64,000 nucleotides of DNA, from the NCBI GenBank assembly GCA_035764005.1, contig DASTZZ010000072.1, positions 1 through 64,000 of the forward strand, written 5' to 3'. This document shows positions 13,918-32,777 of this stretch, one piece after another. The notes beneath the pieces were generated by a model. It did no database searches. It worked only from the letters and a program-made list of their open reading frames with translations, and was not told the DNA's origin. The stretch comes from Terriglobales bacterium. GTDB taxonomy: Bacteria; Acidobacteriota; Terriglobia; Terriglobales; Acidobacteriaceae. The number at the start of each line of letters is the position of its first letter. The stretch's first letter is position 1. The translations under genes and the position numbers were made by a program.

Positions 13918-16152
13918 CTACTTCTTCACTTCTTCTTCTAACTCTCGATATAACTCTGGCAGCTTCTCTGCGTCGGAAGCGGAATCGCCGAAGCGGGCAC
14001 GTTCGTAATGAATCGTAAACCGCTCAACCTGATAGCGAATCGCCGAAGCTGGAACAGCTCGCAGAAATTCCTGTGGCGTCTGTGTGCCAGATTTCCTGAT
14101 GCCCTTTTTGGAGAGCAGTCTGAGTGCGCGGCCATACCAGATAGTCGCGGCGGAGTGAGGCTCCAGGGCGGGCTTGCGAGCAATCTGCAGACGACGCATC
14201 GCTCGATTGAATTTCGGACCAGCCAAGAACCCAAAGAGGAGGATTAAACCGGCAGAAGTCCACCAGATCCAAGCCTCGGCATGCTCTTGAACATTCTCGC
14301 CTACAGCTCTGGCGCGACGCACGCTGCTTTGGTAGATGGAAACAAACCAATCTCGCAAGTGTTCGAACTCAGAACGTCCTCGCCGCGCTGCAGATATGGC
14401 GAGAGAAGTTTGGTGACCGGTGTCGTAGTTGACGACCCACTCGTGCCAAAACTCCCGCATCGCATCGACATACAAAAATGCGCGGTTGAATCCGTCTGTG
14501 GCAGGTTGCGCTCCGCCTGGAGTGGGATCGAAGGTGTACCAGCCGTATTCTGGAAAATACGCTTCAACCCAAGAATGCGCATCGCGGGCTCGAACGATAT
14601 AGCTGCCGGTAATGTCGTTGTAGACGCCGCCGCGGAATCCATTCACGACGCGGGAAGGAATTCCCAGGGTGCGCAGCATCACTGCCATTGCCGACGCAAA
14701 GTATTCACAATGGCCCATCTTGCGCTCGAAAAGAAAGTTTGCGACCGGATCTTTCGGCGGAACGAGCGGGAGCTGCAGCGTATATCCGTAGGTGGTCGCC
14801 AAATATCTTTCAATCGCTGAGGCTTTGCGGAAAGTTGTAGGTTCATTCTCGGTGACGTGGCGTGCAAGGGCTGGAATGCGCGCATCAACGTAGTTGGGTA
14901 GCTGTAAGTAGCGACGATCGACTGAGGGGCCATTACCGCCGATGACGCTGGGATTTAGTGGTGGAGGAATCTCCGAGACCACACTGTAGTCGGTGATTCC
15001 GCGCGAACTATCGGCGTTGAAAATGGTGTCGTTGTTCAAGTCAACTGCGATCACCCGATATCGACCGTTAATTACGACTGCCTGCGGGATCACAAAAAAA
15101 ACGCGCGACCCAAACGGTTCCAATGAAATGTTGTAGGCCACGCGTTCAACTCCGCCTGGGATTCTGGGCAAGTGGCTAAGCAACGGCAGTACGCCGCTAG
15201 TGCTGGGGACCAGGACCTCTTCGTCGCGATCCACGGTCCAGCGACGCCCGTCGAAGTTAGTGAGTGCGATGCCGCGCCAGCGCAGCTCTGCAGGTACTCT
15301 GGAACCGGCAGCGAACTTCACATGCATCACGACATCGTTTGATTGCTGGATTTGGCCAATTTCACCCAAGCGCACTTCTTCGCTGAAGCCGGTTGAAATC
15401 CCATTTCGGGCAGCGAAAGCGCTGAGGTATCCGCCCGAAGTTTTGCGAGGTACGAGGAAGAACAGCGCTACGGTTCCTATCACAATCGTGATCACCAGCA
15501 GTGCGCAGGCCGCAGCCAGCGCTCCAGGAACTCGGCGAAGATCGCGAACCTTCAGTGGATCGGTAGGGACATTTGGCTGGGCGGCGATCCACGTACGCCG
15601 CATCTCCATACTGACGAACGTCATCACCGCCAGCATCACGAACACACAGAAGATGGCGAAGAAGATCGAATCCACTGTGAGAACGGAGGCTGTGAGCACC
15701 ATGCCGAACGAAAGGATCGCCAGGTACACAAAGTCTCGATCGCGGTGGACGGAGAAAATCTTCACAATGGCCGCAAACAGCACCATGTGCACAATCGCGC
15801 CGAGAAAAGCGCGTGAGAGCAGCAAGTAATCGAGCGCAAAGAAGAACAGATAACCGAGCGTCAGATAGTTCGTCCAGCGCTCTGGAATGAGAACAGTACT
15901 CCGCCGGATCAGCAGAAAACCCTTGACCACTAGGGTGAAAAGTCCGATGAAAACGGAGGAGCCATCGAGCTTGCCCGTGCCAGCCAGGGCGGCAAAACCG
16001 GTGAAAAGCATGAAATACAGCGAAACCTCGAAAAATCGCTGTATGACCGGATGGGCCTGCCGGGTTTCAACTGCACTGATTACAGCCATTCTGACCTTTT
16101 CCAGTCTAGCCGACCGGCCTTCACCGGGCAGTTGCGCCATTCCAGCCTTCAT
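13918..16152 (-). CDS. TgpA-like membrane transglutaminase (DUF3488/TGc/DUF4129)
   Basis: A 744-residue membrane protein. The N-terminal 210 residues hold about six transmembrane helices (DUF3488-like). A large extracytoplasmic part follows with a transglutaminase-like papain fold, then another helix (WIWWTSAGLILLFGFLAG) and a cytoplasmic C-terminal DUF4129-like helical tail. The catalytic triad is intact: C482 in GHCEYFASAM, H526 in DAHSWVEAYF and D542 in YTFDPTPGG. Homologues are often encoded next to MoxR ATPase and DUF58 genes, which are absent here. The substrate is unknown. It is the first gene of the minus-strand run that continues into rimO (51 bp gap). Confidence 0.88.
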   Translation of the reverse strand: MKAGMAQLPGEGRSARLEKVRMAVISAVETRQAHPVIQRFFEVSLYFMLFTGFAALAGTGKLDGSSVFIGLFTLVVKGFLLIRRSTVLIPERWTNYLTLGYLFFFALDYLLLSRAFLGAIVHMVLFAAIVKIFSVHRDRDFVYLAILSFGMVLTASVLTVDSIFFAIFCVFVMLAVMTFVSMEMRRTWIAAQPNVPTDPLKVRDLRRVPGALAAACALLVITIVIGTVALFFLVPRKTSGGYLSAFAARNGISTGFSEEVRLGEIGQIQQSNDVVMHVKFAAGSRVPAELRWRGIALTNFDGRRWTVDRDEEVLVPSTSGVLPLLSHLPRIPGGVERVAYNISLEPFGSRVFFVIPQAVVINGRYRVIAVDLNNDTIFNADSSRGITDYSVVSEIPPPLNPSVIGGNGPSVDRRYLQLPNYVDARIPALARHVTENEPTTFRKASAIERYLATTYGYTLQLPLVPPKDPVANFLFERKMGHCEYFASAMAVMLRTLGIPSRVVNGFRGGVYNDITGSYIVRARDAHSWVEAYFPEYGWYTFDPTPGGAQPATDGFNRAFLYVDAMREFWHEWVVNYDTGHQTSLAISAARRGRSEFEHLRDWFVSIYQSSVRRARAVGENVQEHAEAWIWWTSAGLILLFGFLAGPKFNRAMRRLQIARKPALEPHSAATIWYGRALRLLSKKGIRKSGTQTPQEFLRAVPASAIRYQVERFTIHYERARFGDSASDAEKLPELYRELEEEVKK

Positions 16153-16327
16153 CTGGGTGGGACCCCGCCGGGTGTTGGATTGAACTCAATCCAAGGATTG
16201 AGTTCTTACGAACCATAGCTTCCGGCGCTGTCAGTGGCACAGATCGGAGAGGTCGACACCACCGAGGCGTTTGATATGTAATGACTTACACCAATAAATG
16301 AGGCATTCCGAATCGAAAACTCTTGAT

Positions 16328-16425
16328 GGGGTAACCCCGAAATTTCCACGGGGTAACGCCGAGATTTCCACGGGGTTACCCCGGAATTTCCGCAGGGTAA
16401 CCCCATGTTTCCGTGGCGTTACCCC
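16328..16425. repeat. Five regularly spaced GGGGTWACCCC palindromes
   Basis: Five 11-bp boxes start at 16328, 16350, 16372, 16394 and 16415, a step of 22, 22, 22 and 21 bp, close to two helical turns. The sequences are GGGGTAACCCC, GGGGTAACGCC, GGGGTTACCCC, AGGGTAACCCC and GGCGTTACCCC. The roughly 11-bp spacers are similar to one another and AT-rich, around GAAATTTCCAC. The layout resembles a cooperative operator array, although a minisatellite is possible. Confidence 0.75.
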
Positions 16426-16765
16426 ACGACAACGCGGTTCTCACGCTGGACTTGGGGACACAGTGGACGCCGTGGACATCTTTTAAGCATCGCACTGCTC
16501 CTTAAACATCCAAATTCCGTTGTAGATACTGTTCGACTGCAGACTTCGATTTCAATTCCACACATGTCCAGATTGTCCACTGCATCCATCCCGTTTCCCC
16601 AAAGTACCCGCTACCCGGCCTACTTCCGTGCTATGACGAATTAAGGCGAAAGTCAAGCGAAATATTCCCACGTTCGCGAGCACGTGTTATTCCGAACAGG
16701 CACTCGAAGTCCTGCGCGTTTCAAACACTAATAAACCAGCTCAAACCACCGAAGTTCCGAATCCC

Positions 16766-16794
16766 GGAATAGAATCCCAGCGCCGCGAGTCTAA
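16766..16794 (+). promoter_or_regulatory. Possible ECF-type promoter of the sigma factor gene
   Basis: GGAATAG at 16766-16772 and AGTCTAA at 16788-16794 are separated by 15 bp, matching the general ECF pattern (GGAAC-like -35, TCTAA-like -10). The predicted transcription start would fall within a few bases of the ATG at 16803, and no Shine-Dalgarno sequence precedes that ATG. Autoregulation and a leaderless message are therefore possible but unproven. Confidence 0.35.
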
Positions 16795-16802
16795 TCATCC
16801 GA

Positions 16803-17351
16803 ATGGAAACCGGCGCCAATTCCGGTGAGAAGATGGCTCGCTTCGAGAGGCTGGTGTTACCGCATCTCGATTCCGCCTACAACCTCGCGCGATGGATGAC
16901 GCGCAATACCGCCGACGCCGAGGATGTCGCCCAGGAAGCTCTCCTGCGGGCATTTCGGTTCTTCGAAGGCTTCCGCGGAGAAGATGGTCGAGTGTGGTTG
17001 ATGGCTATCGTTCGCAACACGTACCTCACCTGGATTCGCCGCCAGTCACCGCAGCAGAACGCGATCGAATTCGACGAGCATCTGCATACCGATCTGGAAC
17101 TCTCGCTCACGCCTGAGTCCGACGTTCTGCGACATGCCACCGTCGAGCAGGTAAGGAGCGCAATCGAGTCGCTGCCGCCTGAGTACCGCGAGGTGATCCT
17201 TATGCGCGAGCTTGAGCAGATGTCTTATAAAGAGATCGCGGCGGCGACTGAATCCGCTCTGGGAACTGTCATGTCGCGGCTATCGCGAGCTCGAAGCATG
17301 TTGCGCCAACGAATCGCCAACGAGCGGAGAACGGAAGTGAAGCAGCCATGA
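16803..17351 (+). CDS. ECF-type RNA polymerase sigma factor
   Basis: A 182-residue sigma-70 family protein of ECF size. Region 2 is visible at about 18-85 (AYNLARWMTRNTADAEDVAQEALLRAF, then DGRVWLMAIVRNTYLTWIRR). Region 4 is at about 118-170 (IESLPPEYREVILMRELEQMSYKEIAAA, then GTVMSRLSRAR, a helix-turn-helix). It overlaps the anti-sigma gene by ATGA (17348-17351), so the pair is translationally coupled. The regulon is unknown. Confidence 0.95.
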   Translation: METGANSGEKMARFERLVLPHLDSAYNLARWMTRNTADAEDVAQEALLRAFRFFEGFRGEDGRVWLMAIVRNTYLTWIRRQSPQQNAIEFDEHLHTDLELSLTPESDVLRHATVEQVRSAIESLPPEYREVILMRELEQMSYKEIAAATESALGTVMSRLSRARSMLRQRIANERRTEVKQP

Positions 17352-18097
17352 CCAGCCACGCACAACGCAATCTGCTGCACGCTTACGTTGACGACGAGCT
17401 CGATCTAGTGCGAAGTATGGAATTGGAAGACCACCTCGCCGAATGCGCCGATTGCGCTCAGCAGGTGGAGAGCTTTCGAGCCTTGAGAGCTGCGTTCGCC
17501 GCTTCCGATCTGCGCTATGGTGTCGGCGACCAGTTGCGAACTCGCATAACGCAAGCTCTCGAGAAAACCGAACGTCCGCCGGTTCGCGAGCGAGGACCGC
17601 GATCGCTTTCGTGGTGGAACTGGGTTGCGGCAGCAGCTTGCCTTCTGATCGCCATTGGAGGACTGCTCCTCTATTCCGGCAACCATAGCGATGAGACCTT
17701 GGCGCGTGAACTTGTGGCCGATCATGTCCGTTCGCTTATGGCAACGCACCTGACTGACGTGCTCACCTCCGATCAACACACCGTGAAACCGTGGTTTACC
17801 GGCAAGCTCGACTTCTCGCCACGCGTGCGCGACCTCACCAGCGACGGCTTCGAACTCGTTGGCGGACGACTCGATTATGTCGACGGCCATTCGGCGGCGG
17901 CCATCGTCTATCAACGCCGCAAGCATGTGATCAACCTGTTTACCTGGCCGGCAAAGAGCGGCGACGAGTCGCCGCACACGACAGCGCAGCAGGGATTTAA
18001 TCTCATCGAGTGGACGCAGGATGGAATGTATTACTGCGCGGTTTCGGATTTGAATCAGCAGGACTTAGAAGGATTTGTGGAGTTGGTGAGACGGTAA
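17348..18097 (+). CDS. Membrane anti-sigma factor with zinc-finger domain
   Basis: A 249-residue protein with an N-terminal cytoplasmic anti-sigma zinc domain: H29, C33 and C36 form the HxxxCxxC ZAS motif (HLAECADC). One transmembrane helix follows (WNWVAAAACLLIAIGGLLLYSG, around 90-110). The extracytoplasmic domain of about 135 residues includes LTSDGFELVGGRLDYVDGHSA, seen in many ZAS-type anti-sigma proteins. It is coupled to the sigma gene upstream. The signal controlling release of the sigma factor cannot be inferred. Confidence 0.92.
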   Translation: MTSHAQRNLLHAYVDDELDLVRSMELEDHLAECADCAQQVESFRALRAAFAASDLRYGVGDQLRTRITQALEKTERPPVRERGPRSLSWWNWVAAAACLLIAIGGLLLYSGNHSDETLARELVADHVRSLMATHLTDVLTSDQHTVKPWFTGKLDFSPRVRDLTSDGFELVGGRLDYVDGHSAAAIVYQRRKHVINLFTWPAKSGDESPHTTAQQGFNLIEWTQDGMYYCAVSDLNQQDLEGFVELVRR

Positions 18098-18611: not shown

Positions 18612-19010
18612 ATGTCGATTCCCCGTGAACACCGCCTGCGCAAACACGCCGAATTTGAGCAAGTTTACCGGTGCGGGCGGCGACACTTCTCGCAGATTCT
18701 GACCGCTTTCTACCTGTTGCGTACAGGAGAGATTGGCGTAGGCCGAGGGCCCAGAGTGGGAATCACCGTTGGGAAAGCATTAGGAAAGGCAACGACGCGG
18801 AATCGAATTAAGCGCAGAGTGCGCGCCGCCGTGAGTGAAAGTCTGAAGCGGCTGACGCGCGATGTGGATGTTGTCATTAATCCGAAGAAAACGACGTTGG
18901 ACGTCGAATTTGCGCAGCTTCTGAGCGAAGTGGGCCGGGCCTTTGACGTGATCCAGCAAAAGGCAGCGATAGGCAAGTCAGTACCGTCCGCAGTAGCGGA
19001 TGGGTGTTAG
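18612..19010 (+). CDS. rnpA: Ribonuclease P protein component
   Basis: A 132-residue RNase P protein. It binds the catalytic RNA (rnpB, at about 41827 in this window) and helps process tRNA 5' ends. The N-terminal [16 protein letters not shown] and the RNR signature at 63-69 ([17 protein letters not shown]) are typical. The body ends near residue 122. The last ten residues, [10 protein letters not shown], are encoded by the left arm of a REP-like palindrome (18979-19007), and the stop codon falls at the start of the loop. The element has evidently replaced or extended the native 3' end. Confidence 0.95.
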
Positions 19011-19051
19011 CCGCAATCTGACACACCCATCCGCTACCGCGGACGGTACTG
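18979..19051. repeat. REP-like long palindrome (29-nt arms)
   Basis: The arm at 18979-19007 and the arm at 19023-19051 are reverse complements with one mismatch, around a 15-nt loop. The core is TACCGTCCGCNGTAGCGGAT followed by GGGTG. A related, more diverged copy lies at 27464-27547 after xseA. The left arm is inside rnpA. Confidence 0.85.
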
Positions 19052-19122
19052 ATGTCGGGTGCAAACGGTACCGATACACGGATCAAAGTAGTAGAGATTC
19101 TCGTATTGCTGTCAGACGCACA

Positions 19123-19392
19123 ATGCAGACGGCGACTCCAGAGATGGCGAGTGCTCAACATGTGATCGAGCTTCTGTTGGCTTGGTACAAGCGCTGGCTC
19201 TCGCCGTTGTTCGGTAACTCGTGCCGCTTCACTCCGACCTGTTCGGAATATGCGGCACAAGCGATCACCGAACGCGGATTGCTCAAAGGAACCGGTCTGG
19301 CCGCATGGCGATTGCTGCGCTGCCATCCATTCGGCGGCAGGGGATACGATCCGGTGCCGCGCTGCGCGCACTCAGAACAACTTCGATCTTAG
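19123..19392 (+). CDS. yidD: Membrane protein insertion efficiency factor YidD
   Basis: An 89-residue YidD protein. The conserved core is [32 protein letters not shown] and [18 protein letters not shown]. It assists YidC/Sec-dependent membrane insertion. I chose the ATG at 19123 because the frame upstream is the REP palindrome region; the ATG at 19144 is an alternative. It is followed closely by yidC. Confidence 0.93.
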
Positions 19393-19419
19393 AAATTTGC
19401 ATTCATTTGGCAGGTAACG

Positions 19420-21219
19420 TTGAGCGATTTCCAAACTCCTAATCAAGACCCAGGCGCCGAACGACGGCTCCTGCTCACCTTCGCGCTTACATTCGTCGTC
19501 ATCTTCATTACCCAGCAGTTCATCACCAAGTTCTACAAGGCACCGACTCCCCCGCAGCATCAGGAGCAGACGGCGCCACAAAATCCAACTCAGCAGCCTG
19601 TTGCATCGGCGCCTGCGACGACTCCTGCTGCTGCTTCGCCGACGACGAAGAAGCCGAAACAGAACTCCAGTGCTCCGCCGCCAGCGGCAGCTCCAGCGAA
19701 GCAGGCGAACAGCGAATCGACGACGCTGGTTGAGAATGATCTTTTCAAAATAACGTTCAGCAATCACGGAGGCGTTGCCAAATCTTGGGTGCTGAAGAAA
19801 TACAAGGATGACAAGGGCAATCCACTGGAGTTGGTCAACTCCATTGCCGGACCGCAGTACGGATATCCGCTGTCACTGTTCACCTACGACGAATCGCTGC
19901 GCAAAAAGCTGAACGACGCACTTTACGTCTCAACCGAGAAGCGTTCTGGAAATCAGCGCTTCGTCACCTTCGAGTACTCCGATGGCGATGTGGCGGTCAC
20001 GAAAAAGTTCACCTTTGGTGAAACCTACGTGATTCGCGTCGAGACCTCAGTAACGCAGAAGGGCAGCACGGTTTCCGCTTATCCGTGGTGGCCTGCAGGC
20101 TTTGGCGACGAAACGGTCTCGTCCTCCTACGCTGCTGCTCGAATCGATATCGATCGCGAGGACAAGATCGATCGCACCTCGTACAAAAAAGTCTCCGGGG
20201 GGGCGACCATCAATGGGCCGTTTAACTGGGCGGCTTCTGCGGATCAATACTTTGCTGCCGTCTTCATGCCCGATGATCCCGACCACGTCTCACTGGTAAC
20301 TTTCCACAACGAAATCAAGATTCCAAAGAATCTGGACAAGCCCGATCCCAACGACATGGAGAAGGTTCCCGTTCTGGGAGCAGCGGTAGGAACTCCGGGC
20401 GGCGCGACCAGCGAGCGTGTGTTCGTGGGACCGAAGGCGCTCGATGTGATCTCCGACATCCATTCTTACGCTGCGGCTGCGAGCACAGTGCAACAGCCGA
20501 ATGGCCCCACGCTGGAGAAGCTGATTGATTTCGGATTCTTCTCCTTTTTCGCCAAGCCCCTGTTCCAGTGGCTGGTTTGGACGAACGAGCACTGGACCAG
20601 AAATTATGGTTGGGCAATTCTCGTCCTGACGGTGATCATCTATATCGCGTTAATACCGGTGCGCATCTCGACTATGAAGTCGGCGATGCGGATGCAGAAG
20701 ATCCAGCCGCAGGTCCAGGCCATCAATGACAAGTACAAACGCTACAAGCTAACCGATCCGCGGCAGGCAGAAAAAAACCGCGAGCTTCAGGATTTGTACA
20801 AGCGCGAGGGGGTGAATCCGCTGGGTGGGTGTCTGCCGAACCTGATTCAGCTTCCCTTTCTCTGGGCCTTCTATACCATGCTCGGCAGCGCGATCGAATT
20901 GCGTCATGCCGGCTGGTTGTGGATCACCGATCTCTCCAGTCCGTCGCACCTGCTGACCATCTTCTTCATCATCTCGATGTTCGCCATGCAGATCATCACG
21001 CCGCAGGCCGGTATGGACCCGGCGCAGCAGAAGATGATGCAGTTCACTATGCCGTTGCTGCTGGGCGTCTTTACGTGGAATCTCTCGGCAGGACTGAGCC
21101 TCTACTGGGCGGCTGGAAATCTGATCGGAATCCTCCAGCAGTTGGGCTTCAACCGCACCAAGTTTGGGCAGGAAATGCGGGCGCACATGCAGAAGCGGGC
21201 GATGATGAAGAAGAGGTAA
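19420..21219 (+). CDS. yidC: Membrane protein insertase YidC
   Basis: A 599-residue YidC/Oxa1 insertase. It has an N-terminal transmembrane anchor (LLLTFALTFVVIFITQQFI), a low-complexity Pro/Ala/Gln-rich linker (about 45-95), a large periplasmic beta-supersandwich domain, and the C-terminal insertase core from about residue 365 (FGFFSFFAKPLFQWLVWTN, then LTVIIYIALIPVRI, GGCLPNLIQLPFLWAFYTML and LYWAAGNLIGILQQ). The start is a TTG at 19420. It ends the rpmH cluster; the jag and mnmE genes often found next are absent, and a convergent gene ends 6 bp away. Confidence 0.97.
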   Translation: MSDFQTPNQDPGAERRLLLTFALTFVVIFITQQFITKFYKAPTPPQHQEQTAPQNPTQQPVASAPATTPAAASPTTKKPKQNSSAPPPAAAPAKQANSESTTLVENDLFKITFSNHGGVAKSWVLKKYKDDKGNPLELVNSIAGPQYGYPLSLFTYDESLRKKLNDALYVSTEKRSGNQRFVTFEYSDGDVAVTKKFTFGETYVIRVETSVTQKGSTVSAYPWWPAGFGDETVSSSYAAARIDIDREDKIDRTSYKKVSGGATINGPFNWAASADQYFAAVFMPDDPDHVSLVTFHNEIKIPKNLDKPDPNDMEKVPVLGAAVGTPGGATSERVFVGPKALDVISDIHSYAAAASTVQQPNGPTLEKLIDFGFFSFFAKPLFQWLVWTNEHWTRNYGWAILVLTVIIYIALIPVRISTMKSAMRMQKIQPQVQAINDKYKRYKLTDPRQAEKNRELQDLYKREGVNPLGGCLPNLIQLPFLWAFYTMLGSAIELRHAGWLWITDLSSPSHLLTIFFIISMFAMQIITPQAGMDPAQQKMMQFTMPLLLGVFTWNLSAGLSLYWAAGNLIGILQQLGFNRTKFGQEMRAHMQKRAMMKKR

Positions 21220-32536: not shown

Positions 32537-32600
32537 CTACGCGCAGTTTACTCCGGCAGAGGACGGAAAGGGAGTGTGCGGCACTTTACAGCAACGAGCT

Positions 32601-32777
32601 GTGGACCGAGTGGACTGTGTGGACGAAGTGGACTCGGTGGACCGAGCGCCTGGATGGGCGGGTGTGTGAGGAGTAAATGAGTGTGGGGAGGCCTGTGGGA
32701 AAACTGGCGCAGCCGAGCGATGGTTTATTGTCCACTCCTTCGTCCACTCAGTCCACAAAGTCCACTCCGTCCACACG
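32601..32777. repeat. Facing arrays of 9-bp repeats (GTGGACNNN and GTCCACNNN)
   Basis: Five GTGGACNNN units run head to tail at exact 9-bp steps from 32601 to 32645. About 85 bp later, five GTCCAC units (32730, then 32742, 32751, 32760 and 32769, again 9 bp apart) run in the opposite sense to 32777. The two arrays could pair as a long imperfect hairpin. They occupy the divergent interval between ccmC (start 32536) and dgt (start 32796). Confidence 0.85.

Follow-up and report, generated by a model that had tools for sequence, protein, structure and literature searches.

Dispersed polar arrays of palindromic boxes downstream of a promoter-like module in a soil acidobacterium

The window analyzed here, by which we mean the whole stretch of 64,000 nucleotides, comes from a soil acidobacterium and contains five short palindromic boxes at a step of 21 to 22 bp between a transglutaminase gene and a pair of sigma and anti-sigma factor genes. 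The question raised by this locus is what the boxes do, and for which of the two neighbors. A preliminary description, made from the window alone, had read them as an operator-like array to which a dimeric regulator might bind. The boxes and the flanking genes are as follows.

16327..16428, minus strand: whole array; the polar unit in the minus-strand reading is a box followed by GTGGAAA
16328..16338, minus strand: box 1, GGGGTAACCCC, exact; the last box in the presumed direction of the transcript
16350..16360, minus strand: box 2, GGGGTAACGCC on the plus strand, one change
16372..16382, minus strand: box 3, GGGGTTACCCC on the plus strand, exact
16394..16404, minus strand: box 4, AGGGTAACCCC on the plus strand, one change
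16415..16425, minus strand: box 5, GGCGTTACCCC on the plus strand, one change; the first box in the presumed direction of the transcript
13918..16152, minus strand: TgpA-type transglutaminase gene (PF11992, PF01841), presumed target of the array
16803..18097, plus strand: ECF-type sigma factor gene and zinc-finger anti-sigma-like gene (PF04542/PF08281, PF13490), on the other side of the array

The box starts on the plus strand are 16328, 16350, 16372, 16394 and 16415, with steps of 22, 22, 22 and 21 bp. A search for GGGGTWACCCC with at most one change found only these five boxes in the 64-kb window. In 60 first-order Markov resamples of the window the mean number of chance matches was 0.28, and two matches never fell within 110 bp of each other. 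Tandem Repeats Finder reported a period of 22 over positions 16328–16404 with a score of 112. These results confirm the number and the steps of the boxes given in the preliminary description, as well as its AT-rich, conserved spacers, which are of the GAAATTTCCAC type, and the 650-bp intergenic region (16153–16802) between the Pfam-verified transglutaminase and ECF sigma/anti-sigma genes. The earlier count of three exact boxes and two with one change had to be corrected to two exact boxes (16328 and 16372) and three with one change (16350, 16394 and 16415). Box 5 is followed on the minus strand by an atypical 10-nt spacer. Against the sequence-only model R1, whose training set included the window copy itself, the array scored an E-value of 5.4e-24 on the minus strand and 6.1e-8 on the plus strand. 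The boxes had also been placed on nearly the same side of the helix. This holds only roughly, since their angles are 0, 34, 69, 103 and 103 degrees at 10.5 bp per turn.

The proposal to look for the boxes elsewhere in this genome and in its relatives was fruitful. Using a sequence-only model built from 31 arrays, with matches on both strands merged by hand, we identified 23 dispersed array places in the genome to which the window belongs (hereafter the own genome), and 7, 5, 3, 3 and 2 places in five other genomes of the genus. Arrays are thus present in all six genus genomes. An earlier DNA query had detected arrays in 6 of 41 genomes, all of this genus. Under stricter filters, a search of 298 genomes of the order, drawn evenly from a larger group, gave strong model matches in five genomes of the genus and in one of another genus (G277, E 6.6e-10), in addition to three borderline matches (E 0.006–0.007). 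A pattern scan of GTDB, for which the pattern was too loose, returned 70 stretches, five of them in Acidobacteria/Acidobacteriota records; the other 65 were taken as chance. In the literature searched, six box spellings appeared only for mammalian NF-kappaB and YB-1, and the search for palindromic intergenic repeats in Acidobacteria gave work on Porphyromonas only, with nothing on point.

Comparison of the arrays revealed three classes of boxes: an 11-bp class, GGSGTWACSCC, a 12-bp class, GGSGTTAACSCC, and an 11-bp class with A/T ends, for example AGGGTAACCCT. The half-sites GGSGT and ACSCC within each box are symmetric and face inward. Among the 22 typed arrays of the own genome, 17 consist of five boxes (the fifth box of L020 being degenerate), one of six and four of three. 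A twenty-third array, near L026, has four boxes, and many arrays of the relatives consist of four full boxes with a half box at one end. On the gene-ward strand, the repeat unit is a box followed by GTGGAAA and approximately four free bases. Conservation of the GTGGAAA positions is 83–100% (11-bp class, 53 units; 12-bp class, 40 units), counted with the first spacer and all spacers other than 11 nt left out. The spacer after the first box deviates (8–12 nt), and the later spacers measure 11 nt in 53 of 54 cases in the 11-bp class and in 40 of 43 cases in the 12-bp class. Because the boxes are separated edge to edge by 11 nt in both classes, the usual step is 22 in the former and 23 in the latter. 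Thus, the edge-to-edge spacing of 11 nt is conserved, not the helical phase. Over the five boxes of three 12-bp-class arrays for which the angle was computed, the turn amounts to 206–240 degrees. These boxes wind round the helix, and the helically phased spacing of a dimeric operator was rejected, together with the earlier notion that phasing organizes the array.

The arrays resemble the tandem operator arrays of dimeric repressors in having repeated palindromic sites beside a promoter. They differ from them in the 11-nt edge-to-edge spacing, kept for boxes of 11 or 12 bp, in the polar unit, and in their occurrence at 23 places with unrelated neighboring genes. A coding repeat was rejected, as periods of 22–23 are not multiples of three. 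In 11 of 37 loci our rough gene caller predicted a short open frame that crosses the array (stop-to-stop frames of 69–227 codons), and these frames were taken for spurious.

Alignment of four orthologous groups showed that the box core is identical in 177 of 185 comparisons (96%), a value that is biased upward somewhat by the detection of boxes by motif score. The outer box positions were identical in 50 of 60 comparisons, the free third and central positions in 69 of 94 and the spacers in 203 of 250, as compared to 1018 of 1714 positions in the upstream flanks (up to 250 bp) and 710 of 1091 in the downstream flanks (up to 150 bp), that is, 59–65%. This pattern is the one expected of a dimeric operator with its core under selection, with the same detection bias. 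Arrays occupy the same place upstream of a RimK-like gene in G001 and G004 (by Pfam) and G003 (by flank similarity), upstream of lhr in G001 (by Pfam) and in G003 and G004 (by flank similarity), and upstream of a gene with a carboxypeptidase regulatory domain in G001 and G004. In G000, G002, G003 and G004, an array is located 850–1,060 bp upstream of the 16S rRNA gene and reads toward it. For these 16S-upstream arrays (L070, L075, L077 and L080), the sequence that precedes the array is also conserved in the relatives and looks coding.

With minisatellites (VNTR), the arrays share head-to-tail repeats with a period of 22–23, but differ in that the number of boxes stays near five across paralogues and the cores are kept across orthologues. 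Since the cores are 96% identical and the flanks 59–65%, the array is no drifting minisatellite. This explanation, which the preliminary description had set against an operator, was therefore rejected. The data support the view of the array as a conserved site that is recognized symmetrically. This part of the operator-like reading stands, whereas helical phasing as its principle does not. Conservation at orthologous loci was likewise found across species at other loci but not at the window locus: in three relatives that carry the transglutaminase gene (61–62% identity at the protein level), the upstream sequence that was read, 0.9, 5.0 and 4.8 kb in length, contains no array.

The orientation of the arrays was compared with that of the neighboring genes, which were called with a rough coding-potential script and, where named here, checked with Pfam. 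Of 24 assessable loci, 21 have the next gene directed away from the array; these are 14 of 17 in the own genome and all of the 7 further loci in the relatives. The count is exclusive of four arrays with no clear neighbor (L037, L038, L084 and L240) and of the third-type arrays L032, L195 and L237 and the second array near L026, and the gap between array and gene sometimes holds a short unverified frame (e.g. L064 and L070). The genes that point away in the own genome are OMP, GH3, DoxX, MocA-type, MacB, PfkB, gap-pgk, LacI-type, RimP, GH39, 16S, TldD, TgpA and DUF5666, and those in the relatives are the RimK-like gene, lhr, the carboxypeptidase-regulatory-domain gene, radical SAM, RecO, ProRS (proS) and DUF5666. 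No common function is evident among the downstream genes scanned, and a regulon by function was rejected. In the three exceptions, all in the own genome (L039, L062 and L197), the array reads into the 3' end of a convergent gene, which at L197 is a weak esterase match below the cut-off.

Three arrays between convergent genes were counted apart. Two of them, L056 and L058, which are orthologues in relatives, are located between convergent DJ-1 and HipA-like genes and score approximately equally on both strands, as expected if polarity follows transcription. The third, L053, between convergent amidohydrolase and glutamine synthetase genes, has half boxes at both ends and is polar by score. A palindromic DNA site alone needs no polarity, and the polarity must come from the GTGGAAA tail. 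We found no evidence in the window for an action of the array on the ECF-type sigma and anti-sigma-like genes at 16803..18097. An ECF sigma factor as the partner of the array was rejected, as the stretches read around the three transglutaminase orthologues contain none, and a search for relatives of the ECF sigma factor in viral contigs found none.

Upstream of the array, in the minus-strand reading, we identified a conserved module with the following elements.

16621..16664, minus strand: promoter-like module, conserved, reading toward the array; 16 strong copies in the genome
16651..16656, minus strand: -35-like TTGACT; its diverged counterparts in relatives are combined with TATAGT/TATAAT at equal spacing
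16628..16633, minus strand: -10-like TAGCAC, 17 nt from the -35 element, weak
16426..16620, minus strand: stretch from module to array with 9-bp GTGGACNNN-like repeats, common to the paralogous leader L017

The module, TTGACT-N17-TAGCAC, has 16 strong copies in the own genome (E up to 1e-6), and in 15 of these it is followed by an array of the same polarity at a distance of 57–385 bp. The sixteenth copy (C21) is followed by a repeat that we interpret as an insertion sequence and soon after by the end of the contig. Strong or diverged modules were found beside 18 of the 21 own arrays examined, and no module was found at the remaining L022, L030 and L033. A scanner for consensus promoters called no promoter at the window module, of which the -10 element is too weak. 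Reading by eye, we observed the consensus-like sigma-70 sequences TTGACT-N17-TATAGT and TTGACT-N17-TATAAT at the equivalent position in the orthologues L046 and L054, and TTGACA with a -10 element of the TAGCA type at 16–17 nt in L040, L041, L047, L049 and L055. The module is thus promoter-like in sequence. The transglutaminase gene would have a leader of approximately 470 nt if transcription starts near 16621, the presumed start site. The preliminary description had placed the array in a divergent region. It is located, however, 3' of a module that reads toward the transglutaminase gene and, being polar, has the appearance of a leader element, not of a site common to two divergent genes.

Module and array are not the only components of these leaders. 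At L265–L267, weaker copies of the module are followed by GGATGAGATC repeats with a central palindrome instead of by boxes. This second element, composed of GGATGAGATC units around a GAGATATCTC-like palindrome, occurs nine times in the own genome, at L265, L266, L267 and six other places; the five relatives gave no match at E 1e-5. Eight of the nine copies are located directly downstream of a module, and the copy on C78 is approximately 650 bp away. In five loci (C7, C65, C55, C17 and C25) the order is module, GATGAGAT element and box array, and the leaders of the own genome therefore look modular. Three paralogous leaders, L018, L019 and L020 (L037, L038 and L039), are alike over 260–500 bp downstream of the array. 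Their common part includes an apparent lhr-like gene start, and two of them then enter one repeated sequence, taken for an insertion sequence.

Similarity among paralogous leaders raises the question of whether module, leader and array have spread jointly as a mobile or duplicating cassette, with no independent regulatory function of the array. The paralogues L016 and L017 are 73% identical over 380 bp from module to array, and L021, L023, L025 and L027 are alike pairwise over 209–292 bp, with a similarity that stops near the -35 element. L018, L019 and L020 are alike also downstream of the array, in the part that resembles the lhr gene start. Neither terminal repeats nor target duplications nor empty sites were demonstrated, however, and different species retain arrays with conserved cores at orthologous loci. 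We consider a cassette of this kind unlikely.

The order of module, array and gene, the polarity and the strong conservation of GTGGAAA are also consistent with an RNA element in the leader. The transcribed boxes would in that case fold or be read as RNA, with hairpins displaying the GGA-containing GTGGAAA linkers, and would control translation, stability or termination. Folding and substitution patterns agree in part: in 31 of 36 arrays folding is more stable for the sense than for the antisense strand, and the last box position on the transcribed strand has changed from C to U in 24 boxes, as compared to 6 boxes with the mirror change at the first position, a bias that would keep a G-U pair. 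Shuffling of the spacers gave similar, modest z-scores on both strands, and redrawing of the free positions did not consistently weaken the folding (mean z of -0.44, -0.10 and +0.36). In view of these results, the difference between the strands was discounted. Scans of 16 + 12 loci with Rfam gave only rRNA and tRNA at or above the gathering score, and the RNAalifold consensus was only -1.44 kcal/mol for 31 arrays, in an imperfect alignment of mixed box classes.

Covariation was analyzed with L053, L056 and L058 left out, and the redraw test additionally without L020, L214 and L233. The third base of the half boxes (G or C) matched in 83 of 177 cases of self-pairing (89 expected) and in 71 of 137 cases of adjacent pairing (67 expected). 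Box-to-box schemes showed no covariation at this base beyond a few single comparisons at p of approximately 0.04 among dozens. RNA stems are thus unsupported at the third base in the schemes tested. The outermost base exceeded the shuffles for self-pairing (157 of 177 versus 146) and adjacent pairing (125 of 137 versus 116), but also in the control scheme L_i:R_i+1 (124 of 137 versus 112), and because the control shows the excess too, the matching seems to reflect a box class common to the whole array. Covariation, RNAalifold and the redraws thus do not support conserved RNA stems, whether self, adjacent or box-to-box, and we regard a leader RNA element as possible but somewhat unlikely. Lack of covariation at the third position together with the approximately unchanged folding energy of the redraws is as expected for recognition by a protein that is indifferent to G or C there. 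The balance favors a double-stranded DNA site, with the polarity provided by the GTGGAAA tail.

If the arrays are DNA sites, they might serve titration or organization of the chromosome, as clusters of DnaA boxes or a nucleoid-occlusion site do, and their nearness to promoters would be incidental. The spacer TTTTCCAC(G/A) resembles a DnaA box, and the sites, approximately two dozen, are dispersed over the own genome. This explanation is very unlikely: the usual spacer departs from the DnaA box at its last base, TTWTNCACA has no match in the window, and such a site needs neither linkage to a promoter nor polarity. The window contains rnpA, yidD and yidC, and its GC-skew profile showed no clear signal of a replication origin.

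GTGG in combination with a palindrome also recalls REP sequences, and like REP/BIME elements the arrays are dispersed, non-coding and palindromic. They differ from REP/BIME in being mostly upstream of genes with a fixed polarity, in a near-constant number of boxes and in the linkage to a promoter. Genomes G000–G005 contain many IS200-like Y1_Tnp genes (52 matches listed, 12 of them own), several in frames of approximately 194 amino acids. One own Y1_Tnp gene (23.1 bits, cut-off 23) is located 242 bp from the own 16S-upstream array, and three more own matches are, by their coordinates, approximately 4–10 kb from arrays, a nearness that may be due to chance. However, there is no array around 35 of the 52 listed matches, including 11 of the 12 own ones, in the approximately 1.7–6.5 kb read, and the twelfth own match is the 16S neighbor. 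Flanking copies are thereby largely refuted, and it is extremely improbable that the arrays are REP-type elements moved by IS200-like (RAYT) transposases.

The reading that we prefer, with a probability of roughly 0.45, is that the array provides paired half-sites for a putative DNA-binding protein and acts on RNA polymerase as a polar gate within the leader that is transcribed. The sites in the double-stranded DNA would be the inward half-sites GGSGT and ACSCC together with the directional tail GTGGAAA. A putative dimeric or oligomerizing protein would bind the paired half-sites, and several sites with their tails would assemble a polar complex in the leader, downstream of the promoter. Provided that the module is an active promoter, the bound complex could slow or stop the polymerase that starts there, as a roadblock or pause, or release it on a signal; the effect would be on elongation, not on initiation. 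Several points count against a gate. The three own loci L039, L062 and L197 have no downstream gene in the direction of the array, the target genes differ in function, which is not typical of a simple regulon, the excess of sense-strand folding (31 of 36) suits a role in the RNA, and the -10 element TAGCAC is weak.

The nearest working analogue of such a gate is the stoperator of mycobacteriophages, although we do not claim that the arrays belong to this family. According to PMC9283540, the stoperators of cluster A mycobacteriophages (L5 and its relatives) are dispersed repressor sites in short intergenic spaces, their orientation follows transcription, and their reversal abolishes repression of elongation. 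The arrays are likewise dispersed and oriented with transcription (21 of 24 loci; 15 of 16 modules). Stoperators are 13-mers that are asymmetric, occur singly in phage genomes and are bound by a monomer. In contrast, the arrays have a symmetric core, consist of groups of mostly four or five boxes (range three to six) and are located 3' of a promoter-like module on a bacterial chromosome. Stoperators being single, asymmetric and monomer-bound, membership fails on these features.

It is rather doubtful that one putative protein family uses all of the multi-box arrays, with their common type of promoter, as a genus-specific, chromosome-wide polar gate on transcription. Such a gate would simultaneously throttle elongation into genes for rRNA and central metabolism and into many others, and would be a bacterial counterpart of the phage stoperators. 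Its box classes (11-bp, 12-bp and A/T-ended) might in that case have arisen separately, with paralogous proteins reading them. Chromosomal sites that control elongation in a polar manner ahead of rRNA and housekeeping genes would provide a novel level of global regulation in a soil phylum that has received little study. The array family has the look of a mode of transcriptional gating that has yet to be described, and the sharply conserved unit should make the putative binder findable by pull-down, if a relative that bears arrays is culturable.

Three further features of the window were observed. A perfect inverted repeat with 11-bp arms around AA and without a T-run is located at 16182–16205, between the array and the start of the transglutaminase gene. 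The sigma/anti-sigma pair is located upstream of a cluster of rnpA, yidD and yidC (18612–21219). Tandem copies of the 9-bp repeat GTGGACNNN are present at 346–378 and 32599–32774, as well as in the leaders L016 and L017, and those at 32601–32634 and 32741–32774 form two blocks of opposite orientation on either side of a gap.
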